Assembly (NCBI RefSeq): GCF_000011185.1
Contig: NC_002689.2
Location: forward strand, 124,001 to 188,000
Direction of reading: 5' to 3'
Length of the DNA stretch: 64,000 nucleotides
DNA from: Thermoplasma volcanium GSS1
GTDB lineage: Archaea; Thermoplasmatota; Thermoplasmata; Thermoplasmatales; Thermoplasmataceae
The translations under genes were made by a program, and so were the position numbers. The notes beneath the pieces are model-generated. The model worked only from the letters and a program-made list of their open reading frames with translations. It was not told the origin of the DNA and did not search any database. Numbering within the stretch: the stretch's first letter is position 1; each line of letters starts with the position of its first letter. This document shows, piece by piece, positions 19,286 to 36,586 of this stretch.

Positions 19286-19357
19286 GGGCCGGTAGATCAG
19301 CGGTAGATCGCCTGCTTTGCAAGCAGGAGGCCTCGGGTTCAAACCCCGACCGGTCCA
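19286..19357 (+). tRNA. tRNA-Ala (UGC)
   Basis: Full cloverleaf: acceptor GGGCCGG/CCGGTCC including the G3-U70 wobble pair that identifies tRNA-Ala, D arm GATC-AGCGGTA-GATC, anticodon stem CCTGC/GCAGG with loop TTTGCAA (anticodon TGC), T arm TCGGG-TTCAAAC-CCCGA, discriminator A. No intron, no encoded CCA. Its 3' end is repeated at 20574-20592, marking it as an integration target. Confidence 0.96.
19339..19357 (+). repeat. Attachment-site-like direct repeat, left copy (within tRNA-Ala)
   Basis: The 19-nt end of the tRNA-Ala gene (T-loop to discriminator) recurs at 20574-20592 with one mismatch (18/19). This is the usual shape of an integrase attachment site, with the intact tRNA on one side. 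Confidence 0.75.
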
Positions 19358-19427
19358 CTAGTTGATTCTGGCAATAAAACTAAAGTCAACTCTGCCTGTC
19401 AAGACTTATCAGATTACATAAGAATTG

Positions 19428-19434
19428 TATATAA
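19428..19434 (+). promoter_or_regulatory. TATA box of the Panacea-like/PIN pair
   Basis: TATATAA centred 24 nt before the ATG at 19455, the spacing of a leaderless archaeal promoter. It decides the start: earlier in-frame codons would lie inside the box. Confidence 0.6.
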
Positions 19435-19454
19435 CTATGAAATATTCTCTTTGT

Positions 19455-19985
19455 ATGGTTTCAAGAAGCGATTTGCTGCTCTCTTTCATCTATGCGTGGG
19501 GAAAGTCAAAGAAGAACAATGAACCAATCCCATCAGTTACACATCTACAGAAAGAGATTTTCCTCCTCTGCAGAAGAACTCCGTTCGCAGAAATGAAAGA
19601 TGTCTATCACTTCGAACCTCTCTGGTATGGCCCATTTTCCAAGGAACTTTCCGGAGATCTAACTGATTTCCAATCAAGAGGAGTAATCTCATTTGATGAG
19701 ATAAGACTTACCAACAAAGGATTTAAAATCGCTGCTTCAGTTTGGGATCACTTAACTGATTTTGAGAAACAGCAAATATTTGACGTCAAGTCAACCTTCA
19801 ATTATATGAGTCTAACAGAATTGCTTGATACGGTGTATTCCAGGTACCCAAGATTCACTAAGAGATCGGCCCTTAAGAAAGAGGTGGTCGATAAGTATTT
19901 CGCTGATTTTCTCCAGGAAAATAAAATAACTGAAGAAGATGTAGTTTCTGCCGTCAATATGGCTAAGAAGGCATTGAGACAATAA
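19455..19985 (+). CDS. Panacea/DUF4065 (YwgA-like) protein, putative antitoxin
   Basis: 176 residues from the promoter-supported ATG. The motif HLQKEIFLL followed by HFEPLWYGPFSKELSGDL and LTNKGFKIAA is the helical Panacea/SocA-YwgA pattern (LQKLxYL ... YGP...). In bacteria Panacea proteins neutralise many unrelated toxins encoded beside them. Here the partner starts one base after the stop (TAA then ATG) and is a PIN nuclease. The antitoxin role is inferred from family and context. Located in a tRNA-bounded island. Confidence 0.65.
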   Translation: MVSRSDLLLSFIYAWGKSKKNNEPIPSVTHLQKEIFLLCRRTPFAEMKDVYHFEPLWYGPFSKELSGDLTDFQSRGVISFDEIRLTNKGFKIAASVWDHLTDFEKQQIFDVKSTFNYMSLTELLDTVYSRYPRFTKRSALKKEVVDKYFADFLQENKITEEDVVSAVNMAKKALRQ

Positions 19986-20477
19986 ATGCGGCTCATAATC
20001 GACACCAATGTTGTATTAGCATATCTGATATCTGGGTCCGCCCGTTCCTCAAATGCGAAGGTGTGCAGGAGAGTAGTAAATGGCTTGGATAAGGCATTTA
20101 CTTGTGATATACTCTACGGTGAGTTGAAAAGACTTCTTGATTTAGACCCAGATCTGATCGAGAAGATTTCAATTATTGGAAAGAAGGAAGGAGATGTATT
20201 TCGTGCCTTATATAATGCTAAAACTGAGTACTTGAACTCAAGACTCGACCCTTACGTTATGCAGCTGAATTTCGTAAAAACAGAGAATCTTGCAATAGAT
20301 CCTGTAGCAATAAAAGATATTGGAAACGATTGGTACATGATTTCGATAGCCAAATCTGTCAGCATCGACTACATTGTTACTTGGAATACTCAGGACGTTC
20401 TCAAGTATGCTGACAGAAACGGCATAGACGTAAACAGAATATTAGAGCCCCCAAAATACTTAGAATTAATAAAATGA
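19986..20477 (+). CDS. PIN-domain ribonuclease, putative toxin
   Basis: 163 residues. PIN acidic residues are in place: Asp6 (LIIDTNVVLAYL), Glu46 (YGELKRL), Asp115 (GNDWYMISIA) and the end-of-fold motif VTWNTQDVL. PIN toxins cut tRNA, rRNA or mRNA. It begins directly after the Panacea-like gene and would be co-translated. The usual archaeal partner is VapB; none is here. Ends about 96 nt before the right-hand tRNA repeat. Confidence 0.78.
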   Translation: MRLIIDTNVVLAYLISGSARSSNAKVCRRVVNGLDKAFTCDILYGELKRLLDLDPDLIEKISIIGKKEGDVFRALYNAKTEYLNSRLDPYVMQLNFVKTENLAIDPVAIKDIGNDWYMISIAKSVSIDYIVTWNTQDVLKYADRNGIDVNRILEPPKYLELIK

Positions 20478-20573
20478 AAGACAATATCTTCGAAGAATGT
20501 CTCGAAATGTCGTTTTTTGCTGAGTATGTCAACTCTGTTTTTGTGAGGATTTAGTATTCCCTTAAAACTTTAA

Positions 20574-20592
20574 TCAAATCCCGACCGGTCCA
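20574..20592 (+). repeat. Attachment-site-like direct repeat, right copy
   Basis: Repeats the last 19 nt of tRNA-Ala (one mismatch, T for C at the seventh position of the repeat). Together with 19339-19357 it frames a 1.2-kb segment carrying only the Panacea-like/PIN pair. An integrase pseudogene begins about 75 nt to the right. Confidence 0.75.
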
Positions 20593-20666
20593 TAATCTAT
20601 TAATCGAATACCTTTCATGCGAGTATTCGACATGTTCTCATGACCACGCAGCCGAAACATCCTTAA

Positions 20667-21305
20667 CTGCTTCTAGACGATTATGTACGAATATGGTTTG
20701 AAAACCTCAGATCAAAATCTGTTTTGGCAGCAGCTTGGGCATTAAGGAATCTGAGGCACTACTGTAAGCTTACCCGTACTGATCCGAAGGGAATCCTGAA
20801 TAGAGCCAGAGCCAACGAGAAGGATTTCAGGTACGAATTAACAGACTTTGTCAGGAAAATGGAGAAAGAAGGTAAGGCAGGGTCATACATAGCTAGATTC
20901 AAGAAGGTTATTCTTTCATGGTTAAAGTTTAACGGTATCGGTTTGTAGTTAACTGTTAACATATCCGGGTAGAACGAAACACCGGCAATCGTTAACGAGA
21001 GAGTTCCAAGCAAGGAGGAGTTGGCAAGGATTCTCAGGAAGGCAACTTCAAGAGGCAGGGTTGCCATAGCAATCATGGCATTCTCCGGACTCCGACCGGA
21101 ATCTCTGGGCGATTATGAGGGCACGGACTGTCTCAGAATTGGTGATCTAAAGGAAGTGAAATTGTCCGACGAAATCCAGTTTGACAAGATACCGGCAAAA
21201 GTGATGGTGAAGAGCAAGCTGAGCAAGTCAAGACAACAGTATTTCGGATTCATTGGAGAGGAAGGCGCAACCTACATCAAGGAGTATCTTGAGGAGCGGG
21301 GCCTT
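20667..21305 (+). pseudogene. Tyrosine recombinase/integrase pseudogene (N-terminal and core parts)
   Basis: The frame reads an N-terminal SAM-like domain (YVRIWFENLRSK, AWALRNLRHYCK, FKKVILSWLKFNGI), then two in-frame stops near 20946 and 20970, then the core entry VPSKEELARILRKA and MAFSGLRPESLG, where the Arg of SGLRPE is the first catalytic arginine. The His-x-x-Arg and Tyr boxes are missing because the sequence switches at about 21290-21305 into a pantothenate kinase fragment. It is probably the relic of the enzyme that used the adjacent tRNA-Ala site. Confidence 0.75.
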
Positions 21306-21840
21306 ATGAACAGGAAGGGCTTTCCGGAGAGTTACGACCTGAAGGCACTGATAAAATTCCCGTACGAACTCAAGTCAGGTAAAGAGAATATTGACATTCC
21401 TCAGTATTCCCATATTATATATGACATAGTTCCAGGCAAGTTCAAGACAGTGGAAAATCCAGATGTACTGATCCTTGAGGGTCTTAATGTCCTTCAGACC
21501 AGGCGGACTGATACAATCCCACCAGCCAGCGAATTGCTGGTTTCTGACTTTCTTGATTTTTCAATTTAATGTGGATGCCATTGAGAAGGACATCATGAAA
21601 TGATATATCGACAGATTCCTCATCTTCAGGGAAACTGCGTTCATGGATGAAAGGTCATTCTTCCGGGAATTCGGAGGCCTAGGCATTGAAGATGCTGTCA
21701 GGACGGCAGGCAACATCTGGGACGAGATAAATGGCCCGAATCTCGTCCAGAACATCTAGCCTTCAAAGTTTCATGCCCACCTGATACTGAACAAGGAAAG
21801 CGACCATTATGTCAGGGAAGTATACATGAGAAAAATTTAG
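21303..21840 (+). pseudogene. coaA: C-terminal fragment of bacterial-type pantothenate kinase (CoaA)
   Basis: Reads clearly as type I CoaA: GLMNRKGFPESYDLKALIKF, PQYSHIIYDIVPGKF, PDVLILEGLNVLQ and VSDFLDFSI. An extra base near 21566 causes a frameshift, after which YIDRFLIFRETAF, GNIWDEINGPNLVQNI and AHLILNKESDHYV continue with in-frame stops (TGA near 21600, TAG near 21758). The P-loop half is absent. Thermoplasmatales lack the archaeal pantoate kinase and Picrophilus has a CoaA homologue, so this is probably a broken copy of such a gene fused to integrase sequence. Confidence 0.85.
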
Positions 21841-21845
21841 AATTC

Positions 21846-23036
21846 TCAGGCAGTAGCCTTTTTCCTGATTTCCCTGAACTTTGTTGGAATATACAGGAAT
21901 CCAAGCGAGATAAGCACGAGGACTGCAAGTATCATCGAAGTCCTGAGCATGGAATTGTAATCCAGAGTCAGTGTAACCAACACTCCACCGGTGATTCCAC
22001 CAGCAAACTGGCCCAAGAACTGCATTGTGTTGTAAATTCCTATATTCGCACCGTAACTCTCCTTCTTGGACAGCTTGGACACCAGTGGCGTAAATACGAT
22101 TTCGTAGATTGAAAATCCTGCAAAGAATATAATGGTGCCAATGAAGAACCAGTCTCTGTTTCCCGTTGCAACTGGCTCCAGGAAAACAAATGGCGTACTG
22201 ACCAGCATGAGGATCAGGGCTATTATCGAGAACAGGGTAGTCTTGCCCCGGTCAGCAAAGCTGGAAGATGCCACTGCTATGATTCCGCCTATTACAACCG
22301 ACCAAAAAAGCAGGAGCTCATATCCGTGTGATCCGTATGCCCGTGTTCCATAGAGGGGGAGGTAATAAAAGAACACAATCATGTAAAGTGATACCAGGAA
22401 ACCCACCACTCCAACAAGGACGGTCTTTGGTTCTATCCTGCCCGCCTTCTTCCTCTCCTCCGCTCTGTATTCTGGCTTGTGGTACTTTATGGCGGTCATG
22501 GGTATTATCGAGATTATTCCCAGCAGCGCTGAAATGAGGAAAAGCGTGTCTGCGCCTAGCCTTGCAGAAATCAGCGGTCCGAGCACAATTCCAATCATGA
22601 AGGCAAAACCGATTGGGATTCCGAGGAGTGCCATTGCGAGGTTCCTCCTTTCTGGCGGGACACTTTCCTGGACCATCGCCATTCCTGATGAGGTGACTGC
22701 ACCAGAACCTGCAACCAGCCTCCCGACTATAAGGCCAAATATGTTTACTGGGTGCCAGGCTATTAAATTTCCCACGATATAGGGTATCATTCCCAGGATG
22801 ATGACATTCTTTCTCCCGAACCTGTCTGATATAATTCCAAATGGGGCCTGGAAAAGGGCCATTGTGAGCCCATATGCGCCAAATGCTATTCCGATGAGGA
22901 TTGGAGAATTCGAGAACAGCTTTCCATAAAGCGTGAAGACAGGGACAACAAGGAAAATTCCAAACATCCTGAGAACTTCAATAACGGCTACTGCGCCAAT
23001 CATCCGTTTCTGGTTCCTGTCAAATGACCTCATCAT
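21846..23036 (-). CDS. MFS transporter, drug/metabolite efflux-like
   Basis: 396 residues with about 12 hydrophobic segments. Motif A is seen after segment 2 (GIISDRFGRKNVI), and the first half has GRLVAGSGAVTSSGMAMVQE as in drug:H+ antiporters. A charged loop divides the halves. Substrate unknown. Codon use and G+C content are visibly higher than in core genes here, matching the neighbouring mobile remnants, which suggests it came in with them. Its 3' end is 5 nt from the CoaA fragment. Confidence 0.83.
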   Translation of the reverse strand: MMRSFDRNQKRMIGAVAVIEVLRMFGIFLVVPVFTLYGKLFSNSPILIGIAFGAYGLTMALFQAPFGIISDRFGRKNVIILGMIPYIVGNLIAWHPVNIFGLIVGRLVAGSGAVTSSGMAMVQESVPPERRNLAMALLGIPIGFAFMIGIVLGPLISARLGADTLFLISALLGIISIIPMTAIKYHKPEYRAEERKKAGRIEPKTVLVGVVGFLVSLYMIVFFYYLPLYGTRAYGSHGYELLLFWSVVIGGIIAVASSSFADRGKTTLFSIIALILMLVSTPFVFLEPVATGNRDWFFIGTIIFFAGFSIYEIVFTPLVSKLSKKESYGANIGIYNTMQFLGQFAGGITGGVLVTLTLDYNSMLRTSMILAVLVLISLGFLYIPTKFREIRKKATA

Positions 23037-23167: not shown

Positions 23168-23614
23168 TCATCCTAACCTTCTTCCTGAATCCGGATCGCC
23201 GTACTTCATGATCCTGTACGACCTCGCATTGTTTGTCTTCAATCCTGTACCATCTGTGCCGAGATCTGCATATCTCAGGTCTGAAATATCTAGTGTAGGT
23301 TTCATGTCATGGATGCGGTGCCATACGGTGGTGTAATAACCGTATTGTGGTATTTTTTTCATGTCAGCAAGGGATCTTGCCATTCCTTCAAGTGCACGAT
23401 AATCCAGGAACTGTTTCCACATCATCATGAATTTCATGAACGATTCCGGGAATAGATAGGGTGAACCACGTTTTCCCCTGTTCATGTTTGTCACTTCCTG
23501 ATCCCACTGCTGTACGAAATCAAGATTGAAGAGGAATGTGCTCCTGATCACCAGCTCTTCATTGTACCCAGGCCAGTTCCTTCCGTCTTTGAAATGTTTT
23601 CCCCATCTAGACAT
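23168..23614 (-). pseudogene. N-terminal fragment of an IS5-like transposase
   Basis: 148 residues, the start of a DDE transposase: NWPGYNEELVIRSTFLFN, PESFMKFMMMWKQFLDYRALEG, and YADLGTDGTGLKTNN with the first catalytic Asp. It stops just after this block, so the other two catalytic residues are lost. 23037-23167 contains no rest of the gene. An inverted repeat lies just upstream of the start. Confidence 0.75.
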
Positions 23615-34467: not shown

Positions 34468-35187
34468 ATGGAGTGCATTCATTTCGAACAAGTTAGCAAA
34501 TACTATGGGAAAAAGAGAGCCATTGACGGCCTTACATTCAGATTGGATTGTGGTGAGAGTATGGCCCTAATCGGCCCTAACGGTGCTGGAAAGAGCACAA
34601 CTCTTAAGATCCTTGCCGGTATATTAAAGCCGGATTCAGGCAGCGTTTCGATATCTGGCTACGATCCATCTACTAATGATGCTAGGAAAATAGTGGGCTA
34701 TCTGCCAGAGGACGCTGCTCCCTACTTTACTCTTTCCGTAAGGGAGAATCTGGAATATATAGGTGCATTGAGAGGAGTTCAGAATCTGAATTCTCGGATG
34801 GATTTCCTCATGGAATTGCTTGGACTAGGTAACTATAGGAATGTAAAGGTTTCAGCGCTGTCTAGGGGTAACAGGCAGAAGTTAGCTATTGCTCTTGTGT
34901 TGATACACGATCCAAAGGTTCTCTTGCTTGACGAACCGCTCAATTACCTTGATATACCATCGCAGGAGGCTATAACCAAATACTTCCACAGCCTCAAGGC
35001 TACATTCCTCGTTTCAACGCACATCATGTCCATAGCCGAGCGTTTCACATCCAGAATCCTCATAATAAATAACGGGCGGAAGGTGTGGGAGGGCGATATT
35101 CAGCAGATAAAGGACCAGAGCAACAGGAGCAATGTTTCAGTTGAGGATCTTATAACCAGGATTATGGGTGGGCAACTTGAACTTTAG
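34468..35187 (+). CDS. ABC transporter ATP-binding protein
   Basis: 239 residues. Walker A GPNGAGKST, signature replaced by LSRGNRQKLAIAL, Walker B VLLLDEPLNYLD, switch His in FLVSTHIMS. Typical of ATPases of two-gene export systems or antibiotic/heme-type ABC systems. Overlaps the permease gene by 20 nt. Confidence 0.92.
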   Translation: MECIHFEQVSKYYGKKRAIDGLTFRLDCGESMALIGPNGAGKSTTLKILAGILKPDSGSVSISGYDPSTNDARKIVGYLPEDAAPYFTLSVRENLEYIGALRGVQNLNSRMDFLMELLGLGNYRNVKVSALSRGNRQKLAIALVLIHDPKVLLLDEPLNYLDIPSQEAITKYFHSLKATFLVSTHIMSIAERFTSRILIINNGRKVWEGDIQQIKDQSNRSNVSVEDLITRIMGGQLEL

Positions 35188-36586
35188 GCTCATCAGGTTT
35201 GTGATAAAAACAAGGTTCACAACTCCTATGCTTGTATTCTACATATTCTTAATTATTCTTCTCTTATACGATTCCTACTTGTCGTATACTTCCAATCTTG
35301 TTCTAAGAGCAAATAGCATTTACTTAGACGGCATAATATCTCTGGTAATCTTCATAATCTCAATTTCCGGTAGCGTTATGCTTAAAAAGTCTGATGTAGA
35401 CTTCCTGTTTCAGCTGCCAGTTAAGCGGTCTGACCTAGGGATAGCTCTTCTCTTCTCATCGTTGCTTAGTTTTTCTATAACTCCAATATTCCTAGGGTTC
35501 CTTGTTTTAACAGTCATGAGCGGCTATTCCATATTCATAGGCATACTGGATATTTTTCTCCAAGTATTTCTGGCTGTGGAGATAGGGTTCTTAATAAGGA
35601 ATTTCAATTTTAGGAAACGTGCAATTATATCTGCGATTCTTGCCATATGGTTTCTTCTTCCCGGCCTATCATACTTTGACTTGGCACCAACTATAACATA
35701 CAGCGGGTATCCGTTTGTCGGTACAATCGTGCTAATAGCTTTACTCGTTCCCATATCTTATTTGGCCATCTCGCGCGCAGGAAACGCAACCTATTTATTC
35801 AGTTCATCTTTCGTGGAAAAAATGGGCGAAGTAAGCCATGGTATATCATTCTATGGACTCTCACCAAAATCGGCAGTCAGAAAAAGATACTTCATGATCT
35901 CTGGTTCGTCAGGGGTAATGAGGGTCGGCGCAGCCGCTAGATCCTATACCTCGAGAGGAGGAATACGTTCATTTTTTATTGTATCCGTTGTAATTGCGAT
36001 CCTATACGGCATCCTAATTTACTTTATTCCCAAAAGTATGTATCTATTCGTAGTTCCTTATGTTGTATTATATGGAGTCTTTATAATCCCAACTGCTAGA
36101 AGTTATGGATCTGTTTCATCAGAGAGAGTATGGCTCGCCTTTATGTCCATGCCACCTCACATCTATCTCAGGAATGCGTCTCTTGCTAGATCCTTTTCTC
36201 AGCTACTTCTATCAGTTCCATTCTTCGCAGCGAACATTTTGCTATTTATCATTTTAAAGGCGAATATATTCCTAGCGGCCTCATCTTATTTTGTGCTTAT
36301 TTCTCCTGCCATATCTATAATATCCTTCTTTATGTCTGCATATATTAACCCAATGCAGATAATTGATATAGGAGAGATATCATATTCCTATAGGAATTCG
36401 CTATCTTCATTACTGACAATGTTGATCTTGTTGGCGATCTCAGCCCCTGCTATCATAGGCCTCTTTACACCTATATTTTCTGTTTATTACGTTGTAGGTA
36501 TTTGGATACCATCCGCTATAATACTTTATCTTCCGCGCACTGGATCTGCCATAATGAAACGTATGGTTGAAAGGAACTTCGTCTAA
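35168..36586 (+). CDS. ABC transporter membrane subunit
   Basis: 472 residues from a GTG inside the end of the ATPase gene. Ten or more hydrophobic segments; N-terminal half has the ABC-2-like DFLFQLPVKRSDLG (coupling region). No substrate information. Translationally coupled to the ATPase. Confidence 0.82.
   Translation: MGNLNFRLIRFVIKTRFTTPMLVFYIFLIILLLYDSYLSYTSNLVLRANSIYLDGIISLVIFIISISGSVMLKKSDVDFLFQLPVKRSDLGIALLFSSLLSFSITPIFLGFLVLTVMSGYSIFIGILDIFLQVFLAVEIGFLIRNFNFRKRAIISAILAIWFLLPGLSYFDLAPTITYSGYPFVGTIVLIALLVPISYLAISRAGNATYLFSSSFVEKMGEVSHGISFYGLSPKSAVRKRYFMISGSSGVMRVGAAARSYTSRGGIRSFFIVSVVIAILYGILIYFIPKSMYLFVVPYVVLYGVFIIPTARSYGSVSSERVWLAFMSMPPHIYLRNASLARSFSQLLLSVPFFAANILLFIILKANIFLAASSYFVLISPAISIISFFMSAYINPMQIIDIGEISYSYRNSLSSLLTMLILLAISAPAIIGLFTPIFSVYYVVGIWIPSAIILYLPRTGSAIMKRMVERNFV

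Follow-up and report, generated by a model that had tools for sequence, protein, structure and literature searches.

The tyrosine recombinases of archaeal integrative elements have been reviewed (PMC8371274), and Picrophilus torridus has yielded a characterised type I pantothenate kinase (CoaA; Takagi 2010, cited in PMC6650551). Thermoplasmatales lack both PoK and PPS, and in view of the Picrophilus enzyme a bacterial-type pathway has been considered possible (PMC6650551). In Thermoplasma volcanium GSS1 (one contig, 1,584,804 bp), both types of gene meet in a single reading frame: at positions 20640-21840 of the window (the whole 64,000-nucleotide stretch of DNA that was analysed), an integrase runs into a pantothenate kinase. 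The fusion is far beyond chance, and the integrase/CoaA chimera is real. When compared with the CoaA family (TIGR00554), the C-terminal half preserved in the relic agrees in sequence and order; the relic is, however, without the P-loop half and carries a frameshift and two stops, so that it cannot be an enzyme. On the recombinase side the nearest model is NCBIfam XerA_Arch, which an intact paralogue from the same genome matches only weakly, under the cut-off (E=5.8e-10); this paralogue lies directly after a tRNA-Ala gene with its att at the tRNA 3' end. In 'suicidal' integrases the gene is split by integration. Here, in contrast, the att site lies outside the gene, and the relic was cut by deletion and carries three stops. 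Degraded element remnants at tRNA genes likewise show duplicated att sites, tandem ends, a broken integrase and insertion-sequence debris, and what sets the window case apart from them is the in-frame join to a metabolic gene. It is a dead scar, of a kind already known.

The integrase half occupies 20640-21299 on the plus strand and corresponds to codons 1-220 of 429, the catalytic C-terminal half being missing in the alignment with the paralogue. In translated alignment, these 220 residues are 83.6% identical (E=1e-117) to the intact 429-aa paralogue (C1:1,567,752-1,569,041, equivalent to L003:1753-3042, minus strand). At the DNA level identity is 81%; the coding match is gap-free up to the joint and the similarity continues upstream of the integrase start, through the att site. 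That the gene is an integrase, as the initial annotation had it, is supported at the sequence level by the paralogue's matches to NF040815 (E=5.8e-10) and phrog_1 (E=1.2e-7), and no match to this integrase was found in the viral, phage and plasmid collections. The extent given there needs correction: the gene starts at the ATG at 20640 and not at 20667, and three stops in the integrase part (TAA at 20664, TAG at 20946 and TAG at 20970) had been overlooked. Of the catalytic residues looked for (Arg I, box II Arg, His and the nucleophilic Tyr), the relic retains only the Arg I box (SGLRPES), with PYVLR, GH and Y lying beyond the joint, whereas the paralogue, judged by eye, has all motifs in place (R-box, PYVLR, GH...Y).

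The second half, at 21288-21840 on the plus strand, is the C-terminal ~56% of a type I pantothenate kinase (codons ~143-325), as identified by profile and alignment, with the P-loop part deleted. It matches TIGR00554 panK_bact at model positions 115-221 (E=1.6e-37), which bears out the similarity to CoaA that had been proposed for this half, as well as PF00485 (E=1e-5). Over 179 residues it is 76% identical to the intact CoaA of a genome from another genus of the same family (G031), with which it forms one clade in the tree (support 100/98); a profile built from intact CoaA proteins of family genomes hits CoaA proteins of solved structure (E<=5e-119). A full-length CoaA would have the P-loop GSVAVGKS and an open frame, and the relic has neither: the N-terminal ~142 codons are absent from the window and from the rest of the genome, and a frameshift of +1 nt at ~21564-21570 is followed by TGA at 21601 and TAG at 21757, just as initially described, ahead of the native stop (TAG at 21838). 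Differences by codon position (1/2/3) amount to 31/10/90 between the integrase relic and its paralogue and to 30/21/108 (17/9/51 + 13/12/57) between the CoaA relic and its intact relative. As they fall mostly at third positions in both halves, each was a functional gene over the greater part of its own history. The many lesions on both sides also make sequencing error an unlikely cause.

Where exactly do the two genes meet? An open frame extends from 20973 to 21566, and the change from integrase to CoaA takes place at 21288-21299, in CTTGAGGAGCGG (Leu-Glu-Glu-Arg, plus strand); it is within this stretch that the alignment with the integrase paralogue stops and the alignment with CoaA starts. 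The continuous frame that had been noticed initially is thereby borne out, with the joint now at 21288-21299 instead of about 21290-21305, and so is the remark that the join is plausible in both proteins, Leu-Glu-Glu-Arg being compatible with either parent. Integrase codon ~217-220 is fused in frame to coaA codon ~143-146, which removes the CoaA P-loop along with the integrase box II Arg, His and Tyr (PYVLR, GH and Tyr motifs). At the joint the integrase paralogue reads CTTGATGAGAGA and the coaA of G031 reads CTTGAGGAAAGA, so that these parent proxies are identical at 10 of 12 nucleotides. Among 20,000 random position pairings between the two genes, an equally good local match was found in 0.035% (any frame) to 0.075% (in frame). 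Note that the proxies are 81% (integrase) and 71% (coaA) identical to the relic and that the true parents are gone, which makes this figure supportive rather than exact. The parents are thus more alike at the joint than expected (p about 0.0004-0.0008), which fits deletion at microhomology, and illegitimate recombination of this kind, as suggested in the initial annotation, is the best-supported mechanism.

The surroundings of the fusion point to a succession of integrative elements. Gene order agrees with that of another genus member (G001, 1,564,906 bp) and of other members of the genus up to tRNA-Ala(TGC) at 19286-19358 (plus strand) and then breaks; this tRNA gene, the last point of synteny with G001, is the likely original integration target. 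An 18-bp sequence from its 3' end is directly repeated, att copy 1 being CAAACCCCGACCGGTCCA at 19340-19357 and att copy 2 CAAATCCCGACCGGTCCA at 20575-20592, both on the plus strand (two matches in the window against 0.01 expected). Copy 2 is preceded by a right-end signature, TATTCCCTTAAAACTTTAAT at 20555-20574 (plus strand), that also occurs beside the far att of a 32-kb element described below, and it is followed by integrase-end sequence, so that from 20555 onwards the right end, the att and the left end follow each other without a gap. This is a tandem layout, in which the remnant of one element, with a PIN-domain pair, is followed by the left end of a second, copy 2 marking the junction. 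No third att copy was found in the window on the far side of coaA and its neighbour with up to 3 mismatches allowed, and these genes could be either cargo or flank. A DDE transposase fragment (23168-23614, minus strand; PF13737, E=1.9e-12) borders the block.

Between the two att copies (19425-20477) lies a two-gene unit, on the plus strand, consisting of an ORF that resembles PADLOC PDC-M19A (19425-19985) and a PIN_3-domain ORF (19986-20477; PF13470, E=2.6e-6) as its possible toxin partner; the unit may be a toxin-antitoxin pair. Elsewhere in the genome, an apparently intact integrative element of ~32 kb (G000:C1:1,537,158-1,569,107; L003, L076 and L077) sits after tRNA-Ala(CGC). It carries the same att as the window relic, and its genes include an integrase, a ParA-like ATPase, a serine resolvase and AAA ATPases. 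Inside it is the C-terminal fragment of a second integrase, covering residues 328-429 (68% aa identity; L077:16310-16612, minus strand). An extra att-like copy is found at G000:C1:1,535,626-1,535,642, 1.5 kb past the far att, and the similar end sequence upstream of this copy is suggestive of tandem integration at the 32-kb element too.

The coaA relic has kept its neighbour. A distance of 5 bp separates its stop from the end of an intact, convergent MFS transporter gene (21846-23036, minus strand), and the same tail-to-tail pair is intact in G031 (C25). Because the truncated coaA still stands beside the MFS neighbour that it has in the other genus, it was cut by deletion and was not acquired as an isolated piece. 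The same mobile element is also present in G031 (L213), where it follows the 3' half of a tRNA-Ala gene; its integrase is 87% identical, and its other genes reach 75-81%. The intact coaA-MFS pair of G031 (L200:5283-11672) was judged by eye to adjoin a tRNA-Ile island that contains two integrase-like ORFs. Over the roughly 0.44 Mb of G031 covered by these comparisons, those core orthologues that could be compared with our genome are 27-67% identical, whereas the MFS protein (73%) and, in spite of its decay, the CoaA relic (76%) lie above that range. The MFS gene has a GC3 of 0.54, the top value among long ORFs of the window (mean 0.41, sd 0.05), while GC3 is ordinary in the G031 copies of coaA and MFS, so that the donor may have been a genome other than G031.

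These observations can be combined into a history that we consider very probable as a whole: the locus would be a decayed scar, in which a deletion-made integrase/coaA fusion lies in the remnants of tandem elements, next to what would be a horizontally acquired coaA-MFS pair, and in which loss of coaA was tolerated. By horizontal transfer, the pair would have come from, or together with, a lineage related to G031, where the same element is present. A deletion at microhomology (CTTGAkGArmG) would then have joined integrase to coaA, an illegitimate event that we infer was not catalysed by the integrase. Loss of coaA would have been tolerated because the host presumably makes 4'-phosphopantothenate in another way.

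The likeliest competing explanation concerns the horizontal step. Imagine that the ancestor of the genus had coaA and MFS here or nearby, and that the pair was cut at this locus and lost in the other four species. Such vertical descent would replace horizontal arrival only and leave the deletion scar as it is. coaA occurs in most other genera of the family, and homologues of the two ABC transporter genes flanking coaA in G031 lie at window positions 34468-36586, 13 kb away (55% and 29% aa identity). The CoaA protein is, moreover, conserved, and 66-67% is reached by some of the core orthologues too. Yet MFS and CoaA are both closer to G031 than core genes are, no MFS match was found in G001 or G003 at E<=1e-60, and the MFS clade is scattered, comprising G011 and two copies in G031. 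(An HMG-CoA synthase tree has 11 rows, with G031 absent.) As far as sequence comparison can tell, we therefore regard the vertical account as rather unlikely and horizontal arrival of the pair as the likelier course.

Deletion at microhomology has also to be set against a direct role of the integrase. Integrase and att are both at the spot, and the joint might have been made by a faulty site-specific reaction between att and some site within coaA. However, the joint interrupts the integrase gene itself, at a distance of ~700 bp from the att core, and apart from the two att-like matches described above the window has none, at coaA or elsewhere. Integrase action therefore seems very unlikely, and the integrase was probably a bystander to the fusion. 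The earlier idea that a mobile integrase itself captured a coaA copy is not supported either, given this distance and given that the joint itself removes the integrase's own catalytic residues. Least credible of all is a functional fusion protein. One might point to the 182-aa ORF at 21021-21569, whose 182 codons stay open across the joint, but both the CoaA P-loop and the integrase box II Arg, His and Tyr are absent, lesions flank the joint on both sides, and no homologue was found in viral contigs, while the plasmid matches are CoaA genes. The same fusion was not found in either collection. Lacking the CoaA P-loop and the integrase Tyr, the fused ORF is not expected to have activity. Overall, the initial observation is confirmed and was, if anything, slightly understated, while its interpretation is partly supported.

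Part of that interpretation was that Thermoplasmatales depend on CoaA. For Thermoplasma this does not hold: intact CoaA proteins are absent from all five genus members (G000-G004) when searched with the family profile, and the relic is the only copy in our genome, where searches by Pfam PRK, protein and family profile returned no second or intact coaA. The absence of intact CoaA from this genome and from four other members of the genus implies that the copy at the fusion was dispensable. A weak P-loop match at C1:790142 (E=0.008) was judged by eye to be a MeaB/ArgK-type GTPase beside a methylmalonyl-CoA mutase-like gene. Archaeal PPS (PF02006), the search for which also served as a proxy for pantoate kinase, and CoaX (PF03309) were likewise not found in the five genus members, nor was a Fumble-type PanK (PF03630), a soft negative in that no control scored above the cut-off. 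CoaBC (PF04127), by contrast, is present in 5/5. Outside the genus, one other genome (G017, 96% complete) gave no CoaA match.

The fusion itself is ordinary genome debris with an unusually readable history. The interesting part is what is missing from five Thermoplasma members, namely the vitamin B5 kinase with which coenzyme A synthesis begins. CoaBC uses 4'-phosphopantothenate; the five genus members keep CoaBC, and no known enzyme making 4'-phosphopantothenate turned up in these searches. We give about even chances to the view that Thermoplasma has replaced all known pantothenate kinases by an enzyme still to be identified, or obtains 4'-phosphopantothenate by synthesis or import in some unknown way, in which case the dead coaA would be the scar of a superfluous copy. 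A general statement on CoA synthesis in Thermoplasmatales thereby becomes a specific task, to find the kinase that is missing.
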